Assembly: GCA_027730605.1 (NCBI GenBank)
Contig: JAQCGN010000005.1
Coordinates: 1 to 41,023 of the forward strand
Origin: Actinomycetota bacterium
Lineage (GTDB): Bacteria; Actinomycetota; Actinomycetes; S36-B12; UBA5976
Length of the DNA: 41,023 bases
Reading direction: 5' to 3'
This document shows positions 7,524-31,704 of this stretch, in pieces; position 1 is the first letter of the stretch; the number at the start of each line of letters is the position of its first letter. A program made the position numbers and the translations under genes. The notes under the pieces are model-generated. The model was not told the origin of the DNA. It saw nothing but the letters and a program-made list of their open reading frames with translations, and searched no databases.

Positions 7524-8195
7524 ATGACAAAAACTGGTTTAATCATTGAAAACTGGGGCTCAGATGTCGACTATCAAAGTTCTTGGAATAGACAAAGAGA
7601 AATACACCACAAAATTGTTGCAGAAAATCATGCAGATGTTGCAGTACTACTAGAACACCGAGAAGTTTTCACAGCTGGTAGATCCACCAAGCCAGAGGAT
7701 AGACCAATTGATTCATCACCAGTTTTCGATATTGATCGAGGTGGTCGAATTACTTGGCATGGCCCCGGACAAATCGTTTGTTATCCAATAATGAAATTAG
7801 ATGATCCAGTTGATGTAGTAGCACATGTGCGAAGACTTGAACTATTGATTATTGATGTTTGTTCCCAACTAGGTTTAAATACAACACAAATTGAAGGTCG
7901 AAGTGGTGTCTGGGTTAAAGGAAATAACTCACCTGACAAAAAAATTGCTGCTATTGGAATTAGGGTTGCCAAGCGAGTAACCATGCATGGTTTTGCACTA
8001 AATTGCAACAACTCACTTGATGCATTTCGAAAGATAGTTCCCTGTGGTATTGCTGACGCCGATGTAACGACACTTTCTTTAGAACTAGGTCGGGATGTAT
8101 CAGTCAATGAGGTCACTTCCCTCATAGAAGATGCATTAAGAAATGGTGCGCTTAAGCGAAATGTTTCAAAACGCTCTAAAGTAGAAGTGTCATGA
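7524..8195 (+). CDS. lipB: Lipoyl(octanoyl) transferase LipB
   Basis: '[17 protein letters not shown]', '[18 protein letters not shown]', '[23 protein letters not shown]' signature. Confidence 0.97.
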
Positions 8196-9139
8196 CTATT
8201 GAATTTGTTACCGGTCTAAACTCCGAAGGCAAGAAATTACTTCGCATCGAAGCACGTAATGCTGAAGTACCAATTGAGAAAAAACCTGAGTGGATTAGAA
8301 CTAAATTAAAAACTGGTCCTGAATACACACGAATTCGTGAAATGGTTAAAAAAGAAGGACTTCACACAGTTTGTCAGGAAGCAGGATGCCCCAACATTTT
8401 TGAATGCTGGGAAGACCGTGAGGCAACATTTTTAATTGGTGGATCTGCTTGCACAAGACGTTGTGATTTTTGTTTAATCGATACCGGTAAACCAGATCCT
8501 CTTGATAGAACAGAACCAGACAAAGTTGCTTTAAGTGTAAGAACAATGGGTTTGAAATATGCCACAGTCACAGGTGTCACCAGAGATGATTTAGAAGATG
8601 AAGGTGCTTGGCTATATTCCGAAACTATTAGAGCCATACACAAACACAATCCTGATTGCGGTGTGGAGATTTTAACTCCAGATTTCAGTGGAAAAAAAGA
8701 ATTATTAAAACAAGTTTTTGATGCCAAACCTGAAGTTTTTGCTCATAACTTAGAAACTGTTCCTCGAATATTTAAATCAATTAGACCAGCATTCAACTAT
8801 GAAAAATCTTTAGGTGTTATTACCTTGGCCAAAGAAGCTGGAATGATTACTAAATCAAATTTGATTCTTGGAATGGGTGAAGAAAAAGACGAAATAGTTA
8901 CTGCTTTAAAAGACTTAGTAGATGCAGGTTGCGACTTGATTACCATAACCCAGTATTTAAGACCTTCAGCACTTCATCATCCAATTGCTCGTTGGGTTAA
9001 ACCAGAAGAATTCATCGAATTGGGGGATCTCGCAAAGGAGTTAGGTTTTAGTGGCGTAATGTCTGGACCACTAGTTAGATCTTCTTATCGCGCAGGTCGA
9101 CTATATAAACAAGCACTTGAAGCACGGAATGGAAAATAA
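8192..9139 (+). CDS. lipA: Lipoyl synthase LipA (radical SAM)
   Basis: '[13 protein letters not shown]' and radical SAM '[15 protein letters not shown]'; 4-bp overlap with lipB. Confidence 0.98.
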
Positions 9140-9835
9140 ATGGCCAAATATAAGGAGCCAAAACCAAAGAAAGAAAGATTTAAAACTCTAAAGCAAATAA
9201 AGCAAACCTATTCTATAACTCGTAAAACTGATAAAGCTCTTCCTTGGATAATTCTTCTCACATTAATTGGCACAACTTTGCCGCTAATTTTGGTCGCACA
9301 ATTTTTGTTCGAATCTGCTTTTTCAAAATTGATTACTACCTCTCTTGCTGTTTCAACTGGTTTATTGGCAACTGTTTACCTATTTGGAAAACGAGCCGAA
9401 AAGGCCGCCTATGCACGAATTGAAGGACAACCTGGTGCTGCTGCTGCTGTTTTAAACACTTTAAGAAAAGGTTGGTTTATTACCCCAGCTATTGCTGTTA
9501 CTAGAAATCAAGATTTAGTTCATCGAGTGATTGGACCGGTAGGAATAGTTTTAGTGGGTGAAGGTTCACCAACAAGGGTTGCCCAATTATTGGAAAATGA
9601 AAAAATTAAGGCACGAAGAATCGCTGGAGAAATCCCCGTCTCAACTTTAATTGTGGGCAATGGTGAAGGATTGATCACTTTTAAGAAACTTAATAAGACA
9701 ATCATGAAAATGGGTAAAAAAATTTCCCCAGCTGAATCTCGTGAATTAAGAAACAGATTTGGTGCTTCCGGAGCAAGTTCCCTACCAATTCCTAAGGGTG
9801 CAATGCCTAAAGGTATGAGAATTCCTAGACGCTAA
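9140..9835 (+). CDS. DUF4191 family membrane protein
   Basis: Position right after lipA (as Rv2219) and composition: basic N-terminus, two TM helices, 'EGQPGAAAAVLNTLRKGWFITPAIAVTRNQDLVHRVIGPVGIVLVGEG'. Confidence 0.85.
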   Translation: MAKYKEPKPKKERFKTLKQIKQTYSITRKTDKALPWIILLTLIGTTLPLILVAQFLFESAFSKLITTSLAVSTGLLATVYLFGKRAEKAAYARIEGQPGAAAAVLNTLRKGWFITPAIAVTRNQDLVHRVIGPVGIVLVGEGSPTRVAQLLENEKIKARRIAGEIPVSTLIVGNGEGLITFKKLNKTIMKMGKKISPAESRELRNRFGASGASSLPIPKGAMPKGMRIPRR

Positions 9836-10172
9836 TTATTTGAGTTTTAGCAATACGATCGTGTAATCCCCTACCACTGGCAGTTGATAAAAGTGGAGGA
9901 AATACTAAAATAATTAATAAAGTTCTTATTAAACTTTGAATCAAACGAGGTTTTTGTTGAGTGTTTATATCTTGAACTCTTAAACCAAAAATTCTTTGGC
10001 CAAATGAAGAACCTGTAAGCCAAGTAAATAGAAAAACTTGGGAAGCAAAAATCAATAACGTTAGCAAGGCATGGCTTTGAGTTCCATAATCTGGTCCATC
10101 AGGAATAATCTGTACGACCAAAATCGCTGCAATCCAATCGATGATTAGAGCCAAGATTCTTTTGAAAACCAT
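9825..10172 (-). CDS. RDD family membrane protein
   Basis: 'RILALIIDWIAAILVVQ', 'GSSFGQRIFGLRVQDIN', 'LHDRIAKTQII'; conserved position between DUF4191 and glnA1. Confidence 0.85.
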   Translation of the reverse strand: MVFKRILALIIDWIAAILVVQIIPDGPDYGTQSHALLTLLIFASQVFLFTWLTGSSFGQRIFGLRVQDINTQQKPRLIQSLIRTLLIILVFPPLLSTASGRGLHDRIAKTQIISV

Positions 10173-10242
10173 GGTACAAACATATGCCTGAACTGGATTT
10201 CTCGCGAAATAGCCAGAGCCCTCGAGACAGATGTGAAAACTT

Positions 10243-10280
10243 GTTACAAGCCCGAAACAATTGGGATACCAACTTGATAC
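10243..10280 (+). promoter_or_regulatory. Candidate GlnR operator (four half-sites)
   Basis: GTTAC-n6-GAAAC-n6-GATAC-n6-GATAC with exact 11-bp period, ~95 bp upstream of the glnA1 start. Fits the actinobacterial GlnR consensus gTnAC-n6-GaAAC repeated. Confidence 0.7.
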
Positions 10281-10372
10281 ACCCCTTTAGTAGGTTATGA
10301 ACCAATAGATTGATGGCCCGAGGTTGTGCCCTCTTCTCTAAACCAATAGAAAGTTCTATCAGGAGGTTATTG

Positions 10373-11797
10373 ATGTTTAAGAACGCCGCAGAGGCGATCA
10401 AGTACATCCGCGAAAACGATATTGAATTCGTTGACGTGAGATTCATGGACTTGCCTGGTGTTATGCAACACTTCAACATTCCAGCCAAAGCATTTAACGA
10501 TTCCGTTTTCGAAGACGGATTAATGTTTGATGGCTCTTCAATTCGTGGCTTCCAAGCAATTCACGAATCAGATATGAAGTTAATGCCAGATGTGACAACA
10601 GCTTTTGTTGATCCATTCCGCGAAGCCAAAACATTAGCAATGAATTTCTCTATTCGAGATCCATTCACCAATGAACCATATTCCAGAGATCCAAGAAACG
10701 TTGCTTCAAAAGCTGAAGCTTACTTAAAAGCATCAGGAATTGCTGACACTGTTTATTTTGGTCCAGAAGCTGAGTTCTATATCTTTGATGAAGTTCGTTT
10801 TGATAATCAACCTCAAGGATCATTTTTCAAAATTGATTCAATTGAAGCAGCATGGAACACCGGACGCGAAGAAGAAGGTGGCAACCTTGGATATAAAACT
10901 CCTTTCAAAGGTGGCTACTTCCCTGTTCCTCCAGTAGATCATTTTGCTGATTTACGTGACATTATTTCTTCAACACTTATTAACTTAGGTTTTGAAGTTG
11001 AACGTGCACATCACGAAGTAGGAACTGCTGGTCAAGCAGAAATCAACTACAAGTTCAACACATTATTAAACGCAGCAGATCAAATTATGTTGTTTAAATA
11101 TGTTGTTAAAAACGTAGCTTTCTTAAATGGTCACAGCGCAACTTTTATGCCCAAACCAATGTTTGGTGATAACGGTTCAGGTATGCACTGTCATCAATCA
11201 CTGTGGAAAGATGGCAAACCTTTGTTTTATGACGAAAAAGGTTATGCCGGATTATCTGACACAGCACGTTGGTACATCGGTGGATTGTTAAAGCATGCAC
11301 CATCATTGCTTGCTTTTACTAACCCAACTGTTAACTCATATCACCGTTTAGTTCCAGGATTTGAAGCACCAGTGAATTTGGTTTACTCACAAAGAAACCG
11401 TTCAGCTGCAATTCGTATTCCAATTACTGGATCTAATCCAAAAGCTAAACGAATTGAGTTTAGAGTTCCAGATCCTTCATGCAATCCTTATCTTGCTTTT
11501 GCTGCAATGATGATGGCTGGTATTGATGGTGTTAAAAATAGAATTGAGCCACCAACTCCAGTTGATAAGGATCTATACGAATTACCACCAGATGAAGCAA
11601 AATCTGTGCCACAAGTTCCAGGTTCTTTAGATGCAGTATTAACTGCGTTAGAAAAAGACAAGGACTACTTAACAGCAGGTGGTGTATTTACCCCAGATCT
11701 AATTGATACCTGGATTGAATACAAGAGAGCAAAGGAAATAGACCCAATACGTTTGCGTCCAACTCCTTACGAATACCAGCTGTACTACGACATCTAA
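10373..11797 (+). CDS. glnA: Glutamine synthetase type I (GlnA1)
   Basis: [34 protein letters not shown]...; strong AGGAGG SD 7 nt upstream of ATG 10373, so the supplied ORF start at 10310 is probably too early. Adenylylation-site Tyr region '[20 protein letters not shown]'. Confidence 0.98.
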
Positions 11798-11810
11798 AAA
11801 GTCGAAATAG

Positions 11811-11844
11811 ACACCCCCAACAAGGCAATTGTTGAGGGTGTTTT
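11811..11844 (+). terminator. Rho-independent terminator downstream of glnA1
   Basis: ACACCCCCAACAA-ggcaa-TTGTTGAGGGTGT stem (13 bp, one mismatch) followed by TTTT. Confidence 0.85.
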
Positions 11845-11906
11845 CATTTAATTACCTATTTTTTCACACTTGTGCTTTAACCTGAAATAAGGAAAAAGGA
11901 GAAGTG

Positions 11907-12677
11907 ATGGCTAAACCAACAGTAAAACAAATTAAATCACTACAAGGCTTCAACAGAATTGCGGGAGTTTTTCACCTCTTGCAAATGTTTGCAGTCTTAG
12001 CACTGGCAAACGATTTCGCATTGCCAGTGACTGGAACTTATCTAAATGGACCTCCAGGAACTGCTTTTGGTTCTCCTGTTGTAATACTAGAAACTCCAGT
12101 TGGACTAGCAGTAGCACTATTTCTTGGTTTGTCTGCTCTTTTTCACTTTATTGTTTCAAGTGGAAATTTCTTTAAGAGATATTCAGCATCACTAATGAAG
12201 AATCAAAACATTTTCCGATGGGTAGAGTATTCACTTTCCTCATCTGTGATGATTGTTTTGATAGCTCAAATTTGTGGAATCGGAGACGTTGTTGCCCTGT
12301 TAGCAATATTTGGGGTAAATGCTTCCATGATTCTTTTTGGCTGGCTACAAGAGAAATACACCCAACCTAAAGATGGAGATCTATTGCCATTTTGGTTTGG
12401 TTGTATAGCAGGAATTGTTCCGTGGCTGGGATTACTGATTTATGTGATCGCACCAGGATCAACTTCTGATGTAGCGATACCAGGATTTGTTTATGGCATC
12501 ATCATTTCTCTGTTCTTGTTCTTTAACTCTTTTGCTCTAGTTCAATACTTGCAATACAAAGGCAAAGGAAAATGGAGTAATTACCTCAGAGGAGAACGTG
12601 CCTACATTGTGTTGAGTTTGGTTGCAAAATCAGCACTTGCCTGGCAAATATTCTCAGGAACATTAATTCCTGCTTAA
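11907..12677 (+). CDS. Heliorhodopsin (HeR; very similar to the 48C12 type)
   Basis: 7 TM helices. 'FRWVEYSLSSSVM' (E107) and TM7 'YIVLSLVAKSALAWQ' with Lys241, plus His23/His80, match published 48C12 heliorhodopsin numbering. SD AAAGGAGAA before ATG 11907 (ORF track begins at an in-frame GTG at 11904). Confidence 0.96.
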   Translation: MAKPTVKQIKSLQGFNRIAGVFHLLQMFAVLALANDFALPVTGTYLNGPPGTAFGSPVVILETPVGLAVALFLGLSALFHFIVSSGNFFKRYSASLMKNQNIFRWVEYSLSSSVMIVLIAQICGIGDVVALLAIFGVNASMILFGWLQEKYTQPKDGDLLPFWFGCIAGIVPWLGLLIYVIAPGSTSDVAIPGFVYGIIISLFLFFNSFALVQYLQYKGKGKWSNYLRGERAYIVLSLVAKSALAWQIFSGTLIPA

Positions 12678-12685
12678 TTAATTTC

Positions 12686-12718
12686 GGGTTGGTCTTCGAA
12701 TGTGAAGGCCAACCCTTT
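12686..12718 (+). terminator. Rho-independent terminator downstream of the heliorhodopsin gene
   Basis: GGGTTGGTCTTC-gaatgt-GAAGGCCAACCC (12-bp stem, one G-T wobble) followed by TTT. Confidence 0.82.
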
Positions 12719-12802
12719 ATTTATTCCCGTATTACCTAACTCACACTTTCTACCCATGCGGATTCCAGAATTAGGAGTAATGTGGGAATTGAGGAAAATT
12801 TG

Positions 12803-13408
12803 ATGAAAATTAAATTTGGTAAAAAAGACGGAATCTATCTAGCTCTAATCGGCTTTGTTGTTTTGATTGCATTGAGAGTAGTTAATAGTGACTCCGGTGG
12901 CCACATGATGGGTGATTCCAACTCAAGTGGCATGAATAATTCGCAATCCACCAGTGATTTACAAATGAATGAATCAATGTTTGCTGAAATGATGATTCCT
13001 CATCATCAACAAGCAGTAGAAATGTCAGATTTGGCTTTATCGAAATCAACTAATCCAAAAATTTTGGATTTAGCACAACGCATCAAAGATGCCCAAAGTG
13101 CAGAGATTATTCAAATGCAATCTTGGCTTGGCAGCTCAGAATCAAATTCGATAATGAGTGATCACTCAGGTCATTCTATGGGTGGAATGTTAACTGATGA
13201 AGAATTATCAAAACTTGAATCAGCCTCCGGTGCTGAATTCGATAAATTATTTCTTGAAGGCATGATTGCTCACCATGAGGGTGCAATTGATATGTCAAGA
13301 ATGATTAAGGACACTACAACTAAAGAAATTAATGCATTTGGTGTAAATGTGGTTGAAGTGCAATCAGCTGAAATTCGTGAGATGAAAGAGATTCTAGAAA
13401 GCCTCTAG
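12803..13408 (+). CDS. DUF305 domain-containing protein, membrane-anchored/secreted
   Basis: Signal/TM N-terminus; two His-rich motifs 'MIPHHQQAVEMSDLAL' and 'MIAHHEGAIDMSRMI'. ATG 12803 with upstream GAGGA preferred over GTG 12782. Confidence 0.88.
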   Translation: MKIKFGKKDGIYLALIGFVVLIALRVVNSDSGGHMMGDSNSSGMNNSQSTSDLQMNESMFAEMMIPHHQQAVEMSDLALSKSTNPKILDLAQRIKDAQSAEIIQMQSWLGSSESNSIMSDHSGHSMGGMLTDEELSKLESASGAEFDKLFLEGMIAHHEGAIDMSRMIKDTTTKEINAFGVNVVEVQSAEIREMKEILESL

Positions 13409-23977: not shown

Positions 23978-26908
23978 TTACTCACCATAAAAAATCTTTT
24001 CCATAACTAGTCTTGCTCTTCTGGTAATTCTTCGATAATCCTCGATAAGTTTTGCATGTGATGTTTGATTCAAAGTAAATGCTATGGCAGATAATTCATT
24101 TACATCAGTTGGTATTTGATCATTTGCTTTAGCCCTCGATAACATTTGTGCGTTTCTAATCCAAGTGGCAAGACTCCAAGACTCACTCAATGCTTTGGCA
24201 TCACTTTCGTTAATAAGTTTTGCAGAAACACAAGCTCTTAAGGCAGGTAATGTGGCCGTGATTCTCAAAGACTGTTCTTTATGGCCATGTTGCATTTGCA
24301 ACAATTGCACAACCCACTCCACGTCACTTAATCCACCGCGGCCAAGTTTGGTGTTGAGATTTACATCTGCTCCCCTGGGTAATCTTTCTGATTCCATGCG
24401 AGCTTTAATTCTTCTTATCTCGCGTAGATTTTCATCACTTACTCCATTTTCTGGGTAACGAGTTTTATTTATTCCTTCCATAAATTTCTCTCCTACTTTT
24501 AAATCTCCTGCCACAGGTTGAGCGCGCAAAAGTGCTTGCGCTTCCCAGGGGGCAGACCATTTTTGGTAATAGGAAAGGTATGAATCAAGTGTTCTAACTA
24601 ATGGACCATTTTTTCCTTCAGGTCTTAAATCAGCATCTATTTCTAAGGCTGGATCTGTGGAGGGTTGCATTAATAGAGTGCGAACTCGATTAGCAATATC
24701 TAGAGCACATTTTTCTGCGTCTTGTTGCTCAGCATCTTTCTTAGGTTCATGTACAAACAAGACATCGGCATCACTGCCATATCCAAGTTCAAATCCACCA
24801 AATCTGCCCATAGCAATGATGCTCATATTGGTGGAAACTTCTTTTCCACGTTCACTTTCAATTTCAAGAATGGCAGCTTTTAAGGCAGTTTTTATAACAA
24901 TTGCATAGACATTACTTAATGCATTACCAACTTGTTCAGTTGTTAGCTTGCCACTTAAATCTGCTGTAGCAGTTCTTAAAAGTTCTCTTCGCCTAAACGA
25001 TCTAGCTGCAGAGACAATATTTTCCGCCGTTTCATGTCTTGCAATAACTGCATTCATTTCAATTTCATACTGTTCTTTTGTTCGTGGTGCTAATTCATCA
25101 AGGTTTCCTAACATTGACACTGCTTCGGGTGCACTCATTAACAAATCTGTGGCATATCTACTTGAAGAAAGTAGTTTTGCCATTAATTCAGCAGCTGCTG
25201 ATTCATCTCTTAATAACCTTAAAAACCAAGGGGTACTTCCTAATGCATCACTTAATCTTCTGAAAGAAAGTAAGGCCACATCTGGTTCTGGGCCATCTGC
25301 AAACCATGAGAGTAATACTGGAAGTAATGTTTTTTGAATCACAGCTCTTCGTGAAACACCTATGGTCAAAGATTCAATGTGTCGAAGAGCTGATTCAGGA
25401 TCCTTGTAACCAAGTGCATTTAGCCTCGAAGTTGCCTCAGATATTGTAAGTCGCGCACTGCCTGCATCAAGTCTTGCTACAGCATTAAGTAATGGTCGAT
25501 AGAACAATTTCTCATGAATTCTTCTTACTTCCAATTGATGCTTTCGCCATTGTTTCTCAAGATCGTTGCTTGACTCAGACATAAAACCAAGTGATCGACC
25601 TAACTTTCTTAGTTCACTTTCCTCATCAGGTAAAATGTGAGTTCTTGATAATTTTTGCAATTGAATTCGGTGCTCCAGTGTTCTTAAAAATGTGTAAGCA
25701 TTAGAAAAAGTTGCCGCATCTTCGCGTCCGATGTAGCCCCAGGTGGCTAATTGATCAAGAGCTTGCAAAGTATTTGAACTTCGCACCATCACATCGCTTC
25801 GACCATGAACTAGTTGCAGTAATTGAACTGCAAATTCAACATCCCGAAGTCCGCCTGGGGCAAGTTTTAATTCTCTATCCCCAACTCGGTTATCAATATT
25901 TTCTTCTACCTTTTTACGCATTTTTTGTATTTCATCAACAAAGTTTTCTTTATTTGCTGCTTGCCAGACAAATGGAGAAATTTGATCAAGATACTTATTA
26001 CCCAACTCAATATCACCTGCACTAAATCTGGCTTTAAGTAATGCTTGAAATTCCCAGGTGCTAGCCCATCTTTGGTAATAAGAGACATGTTGTTCAACAG
26101 TTCTAACTAATGCACCAGCTTTACCCTCAGGTCTAAGTGCGGCATCTACTTCCCAAATTTCTCCACCATCATCGGCAACCGAGATATATTGCATAACTTC
26201 AGATGCCACTTTTGTTGCCGCAGAAATAGCAGTCTGTTCATCAGTTCCAGGACTTGGTTCTGCTGTGAATATAACGTCAACATCGGAAACATAGTTAAGT
26301 TCTTGTCCACCAGCTTTTCCCATTGCAATGATGGCTAATTTAAATTTCTTTGGTATATCAATATTTTTGTTTAACGAGACCTCGAGAGCACTTTGTAAAA
26401 TTGCATCGGCAGCATCTGCCAATTCAGCTGCCACTTCCCGTAAGGGCCATTTGCTACAAATATCTCGAGCAGCCAATCCAAGTAATACTTTTCTGTATTC
26501 GCGTACTAAATTAGCACGACTTGATTTTGCGGCAGTTGTAAAAAGAGTAATTAGCTCTTCTTTTGTGTTTGCTTTCGAAAAACTAGTTTCGTGCAAAAAA
26601 ACGGATGCGTCTTCAGGAAAATTAACAAGATGCTCACCTAGCCCATTGGAGGAACCTAAAACGTGCAATAACCGAAGTCTTGATTCATCATTTTCCAGAG
26701 ATTTCAAAAATTCTAAATTTTTCTTCTCGCTTATTCGAACCAGCAGTAGTAAGGCATTATCAGGATCTGCAACTTTACTTAGATTTTCAATCAAAATATC
26801 TTGATCAATGTTTGAATTAAGCATCTTTATCAATTCAGATGCTCTTTTCGAATCAAAAAAACCAGAGCGAGAAAACATCCCGGTTTCAGTTACCGGTCTA
26901 TCTGTCAT
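23978..26908 (-). CDS. glnE: Bifunctional [glutamine synthetase] adenylyltransferase/adenylyl-removing enzyme
   Basis: 976 aa with two nucleotidyltransferase modules ('GKAGGQELNYVSDVDVIFTAEP' and 'GRFGGFELGYGSDADVLFVHEP'). Confidence 0.97.
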   Translation of the reverse strand: MTDRPVTETGMFSRSGFFDSKRASELIKMLNSNIDQDILIENLSKVADPDNALLLLVRISEKKNLEFLKSLENDESRLRLLHVLGSSNGLGEHLVNFPEDASVFLHETSFSKANTKEELITLFTTAAKSSRANLVREYRKVLLGLAARDICSKWPLREVAAELADAADAILQSALEVSLNKNIDIPKKFKLAIIAMGKAGGQELNYVSDVDVIFTAEPSPGTDEQTAISAATKVASEVMQYISVADDGGEIWEVDAALRPEGKAGALVRTVEQHVSYYQRWASTWEFQALLKARFSAGDIELGNKYLDQISPFVWQAANKENFVDEIQKMRKKVEENIDNRVGDRELKLAPGGLRDVEFAVQLLQLVHGRSDVMVRSSNTLQALDQLATWGYIGREDAATFSNAYTFLRTLEHRIQLQKLSRTHILPDEESELRKLGRSLGFMSESSNDLEKQWRKHQLEVRRIHEKLFYRPLLNAVARLDAGSARLTISEATSRLNALGYKDPESALRHIESLTIGVSRRAVIQKTLLPVLLSWFADGPEPDVALLSFRRLSDALGSTPWFLRLLRDESAAAELMAKLLSSSRYATDLLMSAPEAVSMLGNLDELAPRTKEQYEIEMNAVIARHETAENIVSAARSFRRRELLRTATADLSGKLTTEQVGNALSNVYAIVIKTALKAAILEIESERGKEVSTNMSIIAMGRFGGFELGYGSDADVLFVHEPKKDAEQQDAEKCALDIANRVRTLLMQPSTDPALEIDADLRPEGKNGPLVRTLDSYLSYYQKWSAPWEAQALLRAQPVAGDLKVGEKFMEGINKTRYPENGVSDENLREIRRIKARMESERLPRGADVNLNTKLGRGGLSDVEWVVQLLQMQHGHKEQSLRITATLPALRACVSAKLINESDAKALSESWSLATWIRNAQMLSRAKANDQIPTDVNELSAIAFTLNQTSHAKLIEDYRRITRRARLVMEKIFYGE

Positions 26909-27651
26909 TTATCTTTCAAACCTGCGAAATCAACTACAGTTTCAGCAAAAGCTAAACCTAAAGCCCTCCAAGTATTTTTCATTCCTTCACCATATTCACC
27001 AAACTGTTTCTTAACTGAATCATCAGAAATACCTAAAGTTTTTCGCACCTCATCCTCACTAACAAGCCAATCACTCATTATGTTCCAGTCAGTTTCAGGA
27101 TGAAATTGCAATCCCCAAGCACTTTTTCCCAACACAAAAGCTTGCACCTGACAATCATCACTTGTAACAAGTAATTTTGCGTCATGAGGTAGCTCTAAAA
27201 TTGCGTCTTGGTGATATTGCGGAACAGGAATTGCTACGGGTGAGTCCACTACTGAGGATAAAACACAATCATCTTTTGCTTCAGGTAGAAATTCAACAAA
27301 ACCAACACCAATTTCTGGTTTATTAGTTCTGCCAACTTTGCCCCCATTGGCATCAGCTAAAAGTTGTCCACCTAAACAAACTCCCAATGTGGGAGTTTGA
27401 GTTTTGATGACATTTCTTAAAAGCTCTTTTACTTGCTTAAGCCAAGGCCACTTATCTTCATCATGAACTCCGCGAGAACCACCCAGCACAATTACTCCAG
27501 CAAAATTATCCGGACTAGTAGGAACAACATCTCCTTTGAAAGGATAAATAACTTCTATTGCCACACCACGTTCAAATAACCACTCTTCGAGATAACCAAT
27601 TGGGGCATCTTGTTCGTTTTGCACTACTAAAACCACCGGTGGTTTACCCAT
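26905..27651 (-). CDS. Type 1 glutamine amidotransferase
   Basis: 'TLGVCLGGQLLADANGGKVG' nucleophile elbow and 'GLQFHPETDWNIMSDW'; 4-bp overlap with glnE. Confidence 0.88.
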   Translation of the reverse strand: MGKPPVVLVVQNEQDAPIGYLEEWLFERGVAIEVIYPFKGDVVPTSPDNFAGVIVLGGSRGVHDEDKWPWLKQVKELLRNVIKTQTPTLGVCLGGQLLADANGGKVGRTNKPEIGVGFVEFLPEAKDDCVLSSVVDSPVAIPVPQYHQDAILELPHDAKLLVTSDDCQVQAFVLGKSAWGLQFHPETDWNIMSDWLVSEDEVRKTLGISDDSVKKQFGEYGEGMKNTWRALGLAFAETVVDFAGLKDK

Positions 27652-27734
27652 GAACCAAGCCTACTTCCATAACAACCCACAAAGTCACTTATGCCTTATC
27701 TTGCTTTTTTATTTCAAATAATCGTGCAATATTG

Positions 27735-29078
27735 CTATAAGACTGGTAAGTATCTATCAAGTTCCCATTGAGTTACTTGGCGACGATATTCTTCCCACTC
27801 ACTTCGCTTGTTTCTTAAGAAGTAATCAAATACGTGTTCACCTAAAGTTTCTGCCACAAGTTCACTTTTTTCCATCACTTTGATTGCTTCATCTAATGAG
27901 GTTGGAAGTGGAGTGATTCCTAATGCTCTTCTTTCAGCATCAGTTAATGACCACACATCATCTTCGGCACCTTGTGGTAACTCGTAATTTTCTTCAATTC
28001 CTTTTAGTCCTGCAGCTAAAAGAACTGAGTAAGCAAGATAAGGATTAGCTGCAGAATCAAGAGCTCGATATTCAATACGAGTTGATTGACCTTTTGATGG
28101 TTTATACATTGGAACTCTTACTAATGCTGATCTGTTGTTATGGCCCCAACAAACATACGCTGGTGCTTCTCCTCCACCAGTTAAGCGTTTATACGAATTC
28201 ACATATTGATTTGTAACCGCAGTAAATTCTGGTGCATGTTTCAAAATACCGGCGATAAAGCTTCTACCGACTTTACTTAATTGGTATTCAGCACCTGGTT
28301 CATGAAAAGCGTTTTTGTCTCCTTCAAAAAGAGATAAATGTGTGTGCATACCTGAACCTGGTTGATCTCTAAATGGTTTAGGCATAAATGAAGCTCTCAC
28401 ACCTTCACTTAATGCAACTTCTTTTACAACTAAACGAAAGGTCATGATGTTATCTGCTGTACTTAAAGCATCTGCGTAACGCAAATCAATTTCTTGTTGA
28501 CCTGGGCCTCCTTCATGATGTGAAAATTCAACAGAAATTCCCATTGACTCAAGCATGGTGATGGCATTTCTTCTAAAGTCATAACCTGGTCCTGATGCTG
28601 ATTGATCAAAATAACCAACATGATCAACTGGTTTAGGTGAAGCAACATTTACCGCATTTTTGTCATCTTCAAATAAGTAGAACTCAATTTCAGGATGAGT
28701 ATAAAAAGTAAAACCCATATCTGCTGCTTTGGCCATTGTTCTTTTCAAAACCCAACGAGGATCAGCATAAGAAGGTGAACCATCAGGCATTTGAATGTCA
28801 CAAAACATTCTTGCCACACCTGGTCCTTCACTTCGCCAAGGAAGTAATTGAAATGTTGCAGGATCAGGTTTAGCTAACATGTCTGATTCATAAACTCTGG
28901 CAAAACCTTCGATGGCAGAACCATCAAAACCAATTCCTTCAGAAAATGCTGCTTCTAATTCAGCAGGAGCTACTGCTACTGATTTCAAGGAACCGATCAC
29001 ATCGGTAAACCACAAACGTACGAAACGAATATCGCGTTCTTCAATTGTTCTTAATACAAAATCTGCTTGTTTATCCAT
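27735..29078 (-). CDS. glnA2: Glutamine synthetase family protein GlnA2 (type I-like)
   Basis: 'MDKQADFVLRTIEERDIRFVRLWFTDVIGSLKSVAVAPAELEAAFSEGIGFDGSAIEGFARVYESDM' resembles mycobacterial GlnA2. Start chosen at MDKQ; in-frame ATGs at 29084/29087 are alternatives. Confidence 0.93.
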   Translation of the reverse strand: MDKQADFVLRTIEERDIRFVRLWFTDVIGSLKSVAVAPAELEAAFSEGIGFDGSAIEGFARVYESDMLAKPDPATFQLLPWRSEGPGVARMFCDIQMPDGSPSYADPRWVLKRTMAKAADMGFTFYTHPEIEFYLFEDDKNAVNVASPKPVDHVGYFDQSASGPGYDFRRNAITMLESMGISVEFSHHEGGPGQQEIDLRYADALSTADNIMTFRLVVKEVALSEGVRASFMPKPFRDQPGSGMHTHLSLFEGDKNAFHEPGAEYQLSKVGRSFIAGILKHAPEFTAVTNQYVNSYKRLTGGGEAPAYVCWGHNNRSALVRVPMYKPSKGQSTRIEYRALDSAANPYLAYSVLLAAGLKGIEENYELPQGAEDDVWSLTDAERRALGITPLPTSLDEAIKVMEKSELVAETLGEHVFDYFLRNKRSEWEEYRRQVTQWELDRYLPVL

Positions 29079-29101
29079 GAACATCATTGTGCCCCATGAA
29101 T

Positions 29102-29117
29102 GTTTCGGCTTTGTTAC
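29102..29117 (-). promoter_or_regulatory. Candidate GlnR half-operator (GTAAC-n6-GAAAC on minus strand)
   Basis: Minus strand GTAAC-aaagcc-GAAAC in the glnA2/nadE divergent interval. Closely resembles the first pair upstream of glnA1 (GTTAC-aagccc-GAAAC). Confidence 0.5.
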
Positions 29118-29159
29118 ATAAATTTCAGGCAAGATTTAGCCTGGAATACACTTATATAT

Positions 29160-30806
29160 ATGGCACTCACAGTGGCTTTGGCCCAAGTAAACCCTCGGGT
29201 GGGTGATTTAAGTGGCAATGCGGCAATCGTTAGAAATTTCTCCAAGAAAGCATCTGAACTTGGAGCATCTCTAGTTGCTTTTCCAGAAATGGTTTTAACT
29301 GGTTATCCCATAGAAGATCTTTCCTTAAGAAAATCCTTTCAAGATGCTTCCAAGAAAGCATTGAACCAATTAGCAAAAGATTTAGTACTTGATGGGTTAC
29401 AAGATTTAACAGTTGTTGTGGGTTATTTAGATTCAACTGGAGAAAAAGCATCTTTGGGAGTTCCTGCTGGTGGACCACAAAATGCTGCTGCAGTAATTAG
29501 AAATGGTGAAGTAATTGCCAAATACATCAAACATCATTTACCAAACTATGGAGTTTTTGATGAATACAGATACTTTGTCCCAGGAACTGATAACTGCTCA
29601 TTTGAAGTAGAGGGTGTAAAAGTTTCTTTAGCAATTTGTGAAGATATTTGGCAAGACGGTGGACCTGTTTCACAAATTGCTCAACTCAACTCAGATTTAC
29701 TTATAGTTATTAACGGTTCACCATATGAATATGGCAAAGATGATTCTCGTTTACAACTTGTACAAAAAAGAGCTAAAGAAGTAAATGCTCCTCTGGCCTA
29801 TGTAAACATGGTTGGTGGACAAGATGAACTTGTTTTTGATGGTGACTCAATTGTGGTCAACACAGATGGATCAATTGCCAATAGAGCAAATCAATTTGTG
29901 GAAGAAATAATTCTTTTTGAAGTAGAACCAAAGAAACCAATAAGTCAATCAATGGTCAGAAAAAGAAGTAACGATCTGGAAGAGGTTTACCAAGCTTTAG
30001 TTGTGGGCCTAAGAGATTATGTCTTGAAAAATAATATGCAATCAGTTGTACTTGGACTTAGTGGTGGAATCGATTCGGCATTAGTTGCAGCAATCGCTGT
30101 TGATGCACTGGGTGCAAATAATGTTTATGGAGTTTCAATGCCTAGTCCATATTCATCAGAGCATTCCGTAAGTGATGCCAAAGATTTGGCAACTAGAACT
30201 GGTTTGAATTATCGAAGTGTGCCAATCAAACCAATGTTTGATGCTTACCAAGACTCCCTTTCTTTATCTGGTTTAGCAGAAGAGAACTTGCAAGCAAGAC
30301 TTCGTGGAATGACTTTGATGGCAATTTCAAACCAAGAAGGTCACCTAGTTCTTGCCACGGGTAACAAAAGTGAATTAGCTGTTGGCTACTCAACCATTTA
30401 TGGTGATGCTGTTGGTGGTTTTGCTCCTATTAAAGATGTACCAAAAACCTTAGTTTGGCAATTATCTAAATGGAGAAATAAGCAAGCAGGAAATCCTCCA
30501 ATTCCAGAATCAAGTATCACTAAAGAGCCAAGTGCAGAATTACGCCCTGGACAACTTGATACTGATTCTCTTCCAGATTATGAAAAACTTGATCCCATGA
30601 TTAATGCCTATGTTGAGCAAGATCAAGGTGCTTTTGAAATGGCAACCAAGGGAATAGATAAGTCCTTGATTGAAAAAGTGTTGAAACTTATTGATCAAGC
30701 AGAATACAAAAGACGTCAGTACCCACCTGGAACAAAAATTTCAACCAAAGCTTTTGGTCGAGACAGAAGGCAACCAATTACTAATAGTTGGCGAGAAAGT
30801 CTCTAA
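29160..30806 (+). CDS. nadE: Glutamine-dependent NAD+ synthetase
   Basis: Nitrilase-like N-terminus (MALTVALAQVNPRVGDLSGN), 'VVLGLSGGIDSALVAAIAVDALG', 'ATGNKSELAVGYSTIYGDAVGGFAPIKDV'. ATG 29160 preferred over the ORF-track start at 29100. Confidence 0.97.
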   Translation: MALTVALAQVNPRVGDLSGNAAIVRNFSKKASELGASLVAFPEMVLTGYPIEDLSLRKSFQDASKKALNQLAKDLVLDGLQDLTVVVGYLDSTGEKASLGVPAGGPQNAAAVIRNGEVIAKYIKHHLPNYGVFDEYRYFVPGTDNCSFEVEGVKVSLAICEDIWQDGGPVSQIAQLNSDLLIVINGSPYEYGKDDSRLQLVQKRAKEVNAPLAYVNMVGGQDELVFDGDSIVVNTDGSIANRANQFVEEIILFEVEPKKPISQSMVRKRSNDLEEVYQALVVGLRDYVLKNNMQSVVLGLSGGIDSALVAAIAVDALGANNVYGVSMPSPYSSEHSVSDAKDLATRTGLNYRSVPIKPMFDAYQDSLSLSGLAEENLQARLRGMTLMAISNQEGHLVLATGNKSELAVGYSTIYGDAVGGFAPIKDVPKTLVWQLSKWRNKQAGNPPIPESSITKEPSAELRPGQLDTDSLPDYEKLDPMINAYVEQDQGAFEMATKGIDKSLIEKVLKLIDQAEYKRRQYPPGTKISTKAFGRDRRQPITNSWRESL

Positions 30807-30903
30807 GAAATAACCCTTAAGTAGAAGTGGGTCCTAAAATCTGCCACAATTAAGTTATTACCTAGATAAATCCGGGGACCAAGAAATTGGCTTCGAGAGG
30901 AAA

Positions 30904-31704
30904 ATGGTTATGGTTCGTATTTCTGTTAATGACCTATCTTCTTTTAAACAATCCAAAAAACGTTTCACAGTACTTACAAGTTATGACTCATTAACAGCTT
31001 CTCTATTTGATGAATCTGGAATACCGGTTTTATTGGTTGGAGATTCTGCAGCTAATCTAGTTTTGGGTTACGACTCAACTGTGCCAATTACAGTTGAAGA
31101 AATGTTACCCATTGTTAAAGCAGTTGCCAGATCTACATCAAAAGCAATGGTTGTAGCAGATATGCCATTTGGTTCTTATCAATCATCACCAACAGCAGCA
31201 CTTGAATCAGCAACAAGTTTTTTAAAAGCTGGAGCTCACGCAGTAAAACTTGAAGGTGGCCAAAGAGTTTCCTCAACTGTTTCTCATCTTGTTGAATCTG
31301 GAATTCCTGTCATGGGACATATTGGTTTAACGCCTCAATCGGTAAACGTTTTCGGTGGTTACAAAGTTCAAGGTCGCGGTGAACAAGCAGAAGCCTTACT
31401 ACAAGATGCCAAAGCATTAGAAAATGCTGGTGCTTTTTCAATTGTTTTAGAAGCAATTCCAAGAGATCTTGCTAAACAAATAACCGAATCTGTTTCAATT
31501 CCCACAATTGGAATTGGTGCAGGACCTGATACTGATGCTCAAGTGATGGTGTGGCAAGACCTAGTAGGACTTACTCCTGGAGTAAAACCTAAATTTGTGA
31601 AGAATTACTTAAACATTCGTCAAGATATCGAAAAAGCAATCAAAGATTTCAGCAAAGATGTTGAGTCAGGAAAATACCCTGACTCAGATCATTCCTACGA
31701 CTAA
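30904..31704 (+). CDS. panB: 3-methyl-2-oxobutanoate hydroxymethyltransferase
   Basis: 'FTVLTSYDSLTASLFDESGIPVLLVGDSAANLVLGYDSTVPITVEEM', 'VMGHIGLTPQSVNVFGGYKVQGR'. Confidence 0.97.
   Translation: MVMVRISVNDLSSFKQSKKRFTVLTSYDSLTASLFDESGIPVLLVGDSAANLVLGYDSTVPITVEEMLPIVKAVARSTSKAMVVADMPFGSYQSSPTAALESATSFLKAGAHAVKLEGGQRVSSTVSHLVESGIPVMGHIGLTPQSVNVFGGYKVQGRGEQAEALLQDAKALENAGAFSIVLEAIPRDLAKQITESVSIPTIGIGAGPDTDAQVMVWQDLVGLTPGVKPKFVKNYLNIRQDIEKAIKDFSKDVESGKYPDSDHSYD

Follow-up and report, generated by a model that had tools for sequence, protein, structure and literature searches.

The heliorhodopsin gene (HeR) of the window, as we call the 41,023-nucleotide stretch of Actinomycetota bacterium DNA analysed here, encodes, as judged from its sequence, an orthologue of 48C12 and a protein of an already known kind. 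48C12 is the founding, crystallised type member, and HeR adds one sequence to a solved family. What is new is the setting of the gene, which lies beside a different glutamine synthetase (GS) paralogue from the one studied experimentally and behind a terminator; this is a refinement and not a discovery. Very probably, HeR is a true heliorhodopsin that does not pump ions and passes a light-driven change to a cytoplasmic partner protein.

Family identity and coding frame

A Pfam profile search (hmmscan) assigns the HeR protein to the Heliorhodopsin family (PF18761; 325.1 bits against a cut-off of 26.7, E = 3.2e-97), with a match that spans the entire length of the profile (positions 1–242 of 242). 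No second family was matched, and Bac_rhodopsin (PF01036) was not found at E values up to 0.001, which rules out a type-1 rhodopsin. The earlier note, made from the letters of the DNA, had placed the protein outside the type-1 family, and the profile search agrees, with no better match to an unrelated 7-TM family.

In a search of the PDB, the structures of 48C12, which comes from an actinobacterial fosmid, are at the top (PDB 6SU3, 6SU4, 6UH3 and 9LJJ; all 256 residues, E ~1e-161), followed by TaHeR and then by further heliorhodopsin entries. Up to an E value of 10, nothing beyond heliorhodopsins was retrieved. The alignment with 48C12 is ungapped over 256/256 positions (96% identity), and none of its 11 substitutions falls on a tabulated key position. 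The numbering of the two proteins is thus the same, as the earlier note had stated. TaHeR (PDB 6IS6) is archaeal and matches HeR over nearly its full length (E = 1.9e-55), but is far more distant than 48C12.

Lys241 in TM7, the residue of the retinal Schiff base, and Glu107 in TM3, the counterion, are present together with His23 and His80. All four had been proposed earlier, and codon arithmetic places Lys241 at 12627-12629 and Glu107 at 12225-12227, where they had been claimed. H23, H80, R104, E107, S237 and K241 are identical in every tabulated heliorhodopsin relative. Instead of the type-1 motif RYxDW with its Asp counterion, HeR contains RWVEY. As in 48C12, L118 stands at the BR donor position (D96) and S237 at the BR counterion position (D212), consistent with the predicted absence of the usual pump donor and acceptor residues; the replacement has been described for 48C12 (PMC6951262).

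Translation recovers the expected frame of 256 open codons followed by a stop, which contains FRWVEYSLSSSVM and SLVAKSALAW. While the ORF finder puts the start at GTG 11904, one codon upstream, ATG 11907 is the better predicted start, because a ribosome-binding site precedes it (Table 1) and residue 1 of 48C12 aligns there. The AGGAG of this site is kept in four of four other same-genus genomes. Orthologues from three same-genus genomes are 84–93% identical to HeR, and comparison of the window with same-genus orthologues gives a dN/dS of 0.05–0.07, indicating strong purifying selection. Given this value and the E values of the PF18761 and 48C12 matches, the predicted frame is not a chance one.

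Heliorhodopsins occur in 107 of 148 relatives and, counted from the table of genomes, in 39 of the 43 members of the window's family. Two genomes, G005 and G019, each encode a second, divergent heliorhodopsin (L070:7001-7759 and L071:5029-5790) that is about 42–43% identical to HeR and sits on a long branch; each also carries a closer copy. Viral carriage of HeR was considered and rejected, as the sole IMG/VR contig with matches holds distant fragments of 35–45% identity.

Gene neighbourhood and transcription layout

The region upstream of HeR (7524-11797) has the order lipB-lipA-DUF4191-RDD-glnA1. A second block, glnE-GATase-glnA2, is found at 23978-31704 with nadE-panB nearby; lipB, lipA and glnE were assigned by reading the translations. 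The mycobacterial glnA1/glnE/glnA2 region is similarly arranged. In the window, glnA2 and nadE are located 15 kb from HeR and have no HeR beside them.

Table 1. Positions of HeR, its flanking elements and the two glutamine synthetase genes in the window
Feature	Coordinates	Strand	Evidence
glnA1 (GS-I), upstream of HeR	10373..11797	+	PF00120, 463.7 bits; DGSS and DNGSGMH motifs intact
Intrinsic terminator, glnA1/HeR spacer	11810..11848	+	Hairpin and T-rich tail; fold -18.6 kcal/mol, z = -4.4
Ribosome-binding site AAAGGAG, ahead of ATG 11907	11895..11901	+	Read in the sequence
Heliorhodopsin (HeR), 256 aa	11907..12677	+	PF18761, 325 bits; 245/256 identical to 48C12 in PDB 6SU3
Intrinsic terminator 3' of HeR	12686..12715	+	13-pair stem, then T-rich tail; -22 kcal/mol, z = -5.3
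DUF305 protein gene, downstream of HeR	12782..13408	+	PF03713
glnA2 paralogue	27735..29078	-	PF00120, 428.4 bits; DGSA and DQPGSGMH motifs

Two complete relatives, IMCC25003 and IMCC26077, keep the lipB-lipA-DUF4191-RDD-glnA1 block without a HeR there. Within the genus, HeR lies directly 3' of glnA1 in G004, G006 and G001, where the gene is split over two contigs. G002 has the order glnA1-DUF305-HeR, with a DUF305 gene of the same family as the one 3' of HeR in the window, and in G005 HeR is located away from glnA1. HeR thus adjoins glnA1, or is one gene from it, in five of the seven same-genus genomes, counting the window and the split G001. Because relatives keep the block without HeR, and G005 has its HeR elsewhere, the position beside glnA1 looks like a lineage-specific insertion next to an old gene block. 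A third GS-like gene, which lacks DGSS, is found on another contig of the genome (G000:C29:17889-19268; L035:5890-7269) beside an aldehyde dehydrogenase gene and near a glutamine-amidotransferase-like gene. It perhaps encodes a gamma-glutamylpolyamine synthetase.

The spacer between glnA1 and HeR contains a terminator hairpin that no shuffled sequence matched in folding, and which is also present in the spacers of same-genus genomes. G021 and IMCC25003, which have no HeR at this locus, likewise carry a hairpin and T tail 3' of glnA1, so the termination of glnA1 transcripts at this point is probably ancestral. The four other genomes likewise show hairpins, read by eye, 3' of HeR. With terminators on either side, HeR is probably transcribed as a single-gene unit, although some read-through past the terminator may occur; a promoter scan for HeR yielded no convincing promoter. 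A glnA1-HeR operon is disfavoured by the conserved terminator between the two genes and by G002, in which the DUF305 gene intervenes behind a second terminator.

In the HeR tree, the glnA1-linked HeRs and the one of G002 form a supported set (SH-aLRT 99) apart from the glnA2-linked HeRs. Deeper branches are moderately supported, with SH-aLRT values of 81–88 around the window clade and 85 for the glnA2-linked clade.

Proposed function and the glutamine synthetases

By analogy with its relatives, HeR would most likely be a green-light sensor that acts on a cytoplasmic partner without pumping; heliorhodopsins are generally viewed as signalling or regulatory proteins. We infer its photochemistry, topology, absence of pumping and signalling from 48C12 and related proteins. 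HeR would form a dimer with a cytoplasmic N-terminus, the inverted topology reported for 48C12 (PMC6951262). All-trans retinal would be bound on Lys241 with Glu107 as the counterion and would absorb near 550 nm; the maximum of AbHeR is at 553 nm (PMC9529153). Light is expected to isomerise the retinal, with the Schiff-base proton shifting inside an internal network that includes Glu107 and never leaving the protein. The cytoplasmic loops may then slowly change conformation and relay this change to the partner protein.

Cho et al. reported that AbHeR, from Actinobacteria bacterium IMCC26103, binds the adjacent glutamine synthetase AbGS and raises its activity in the light (PMC9529153). By the scheme of that paper, HeR of the window type belongs to subfamily 1, as does AbHeR, and both proteins have an adjoining GS gene. 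GS, in the form of either paralogue, is a candidate partner of HeR, though not a likely one, since the adjoining GS is not the paralogue of the report and a conserved terminator separates the genes.

AbGS carries Ala55 as well as a Pro at the glutamate-binding Asn, and is encoded in an operon with NAD+ synthetase (PMC9529153). The IMCC25003 locus stands in for the AbHeR locus of IMCC26103 in our gene and GS comparisons. The IMCC25003 GS beside HeR has DGSA and D-x-PGSGMH motifs and is 71% identical to GlnA2 of the window and 39% (38.7%) to GlnA1; GlnA1 and GlnA2 of the window are 36% identical to each other. Motif, identity and gene order thus point to AbGS being a GlnA2 paralogue, and motif and identity rule out glnA1 of the window as its orthologue. 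The GS beside 48C12 is also not AbGS-like, with a similarity of 36.64% to AbGS (PMC9529153), a value that would follow if the neighbour of 48C12-type proteins is GlnA1.

The genes nadE-glnA2-HeR occur on one strand in 10 of 80 relatives, with gaps of about 28–80 bp between glnA2 and HeR (10 loci) and a mostly divergent panB. While the AbHeR-type locus combines a GlnA2-type GS with nadE in an operon with a short gap, the window has GlnA1 as the neighbour and a conserved terminator between the genes. Because of this, and with glnA2 15 kb away, the AbHeR model of GS regulation does not, on gene arrangement, transfer to HeR by adjacency; action in trans is possible.

It is unlikely that HeR is a light-dependent activator of the adjoining GlnA1. 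Such a role has the AbHeR precedent and the conserved proximity to glnA1 within the genus in its favour, but the GS of the AbHeR-type arrangement is GlnA2, the terminator between glnA1 and HeR is conserved across the genus, and a DUF305 gene intervenes in G002. The ICL3 lysines of AbHeR that are required for GS binding, K216, K217 and K220 (PMC9529153), correspond to Lys218, Gly219 and Lys222 of HeR, which has an additional lysine, K220. Two of the three are thus retained, in favour of such a role, although every tabulated heliorhodopsin has Lys or Arg at the position of K216, which is hence not diagnostic; Gly219 in place of K217 counts against the role, and as a set the lysines point neither way. 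The AbHeR authors themselves doubted such activation for 48C12 (PMC9529153).

Less probable still is the regulation of the non-adjacent GlnA2 in trans by a HeR relocated from an ancestral nadE-glnA2-HeR operon. The GlnA2/nadE/panB block of the window, left without a HeR, and the nadE-glnA2-HeR order in ten relatives are consistent with it. The HeR tree, however, does not nest the window clade in the glnA2-linked clade, at moderate support, and other family members have HeR elsewhere, so descent from such an operon is at most a possibility. We give a similarly low chance to a broader scenario, in which two actinobacterial HeR lineages independently came to lie beside different GS paralogues, GlnA2 in the IMCC25003/AbHeR type and GlnA1 in the genus of 48C12, because, through either enzyme, HeR would exert protein-level control over nitrogen assimilation, also where the HeR and GS genes are transcribed separately. 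The reported light control of GS concerns a GlnA2-linked operon, and an adjoining GS gene is insufficient to extend it to the 48C12 lineage. The genus of 48C12 can be used to test GS as a general heliorhodopsin partner.

Light-driven ion transport in place of sensing is highly improbable: although the viral heliorhodopsin V2HeR3 is reported to transport protons (PMC9448325), 48C12, at 96% identity, showed neither pump nor channel activity (PMC6951262), AbHeR does not pump (PMC9529153), and L118 and S237 occupy the BR donor and counterion positions in HeR.

Retinal supply and the type-1 rhodopsin

Neither a BCD/Blh (PF15461) nor an RPE65-type (PF03055) retinal-forming dioxygenase was found in the window's genome, which is ~95% complete and may still encode such an enzyme. 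IMCC25003 and 4 of the 43 genomes of the family gave a BCD match in the identical search. BCD was not found in six other same-genus genomes, nor the RPE65-type enzyme in the eight family genomes tested. The failure to find a recognised retinal-forming enzyme in the genome makes formation of the HeR holoprotein in native cells uncertain; an actinobacterium that has a functional rhodopsin but no known retinal gene has already been described (PMC7734400).

The genome does contain a carotenoid cluster (L171:258-5497; G000 contig C8) that encodes a PF04240 carotenoid-biosynthesis protein, a polyprenyl synthetase, a phytoene synthase and an apparent phytoene desaturase. An unassigned, glycosyltransferase-like protein is encoded in the same cluster. 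A separate type-1 rhodopsin (PF01036) with an RYVDW motif is encoded on another contig (L036:8808-9644; G000 contig C68), and HeR is therefore not the sole rhodopsin of the genome.
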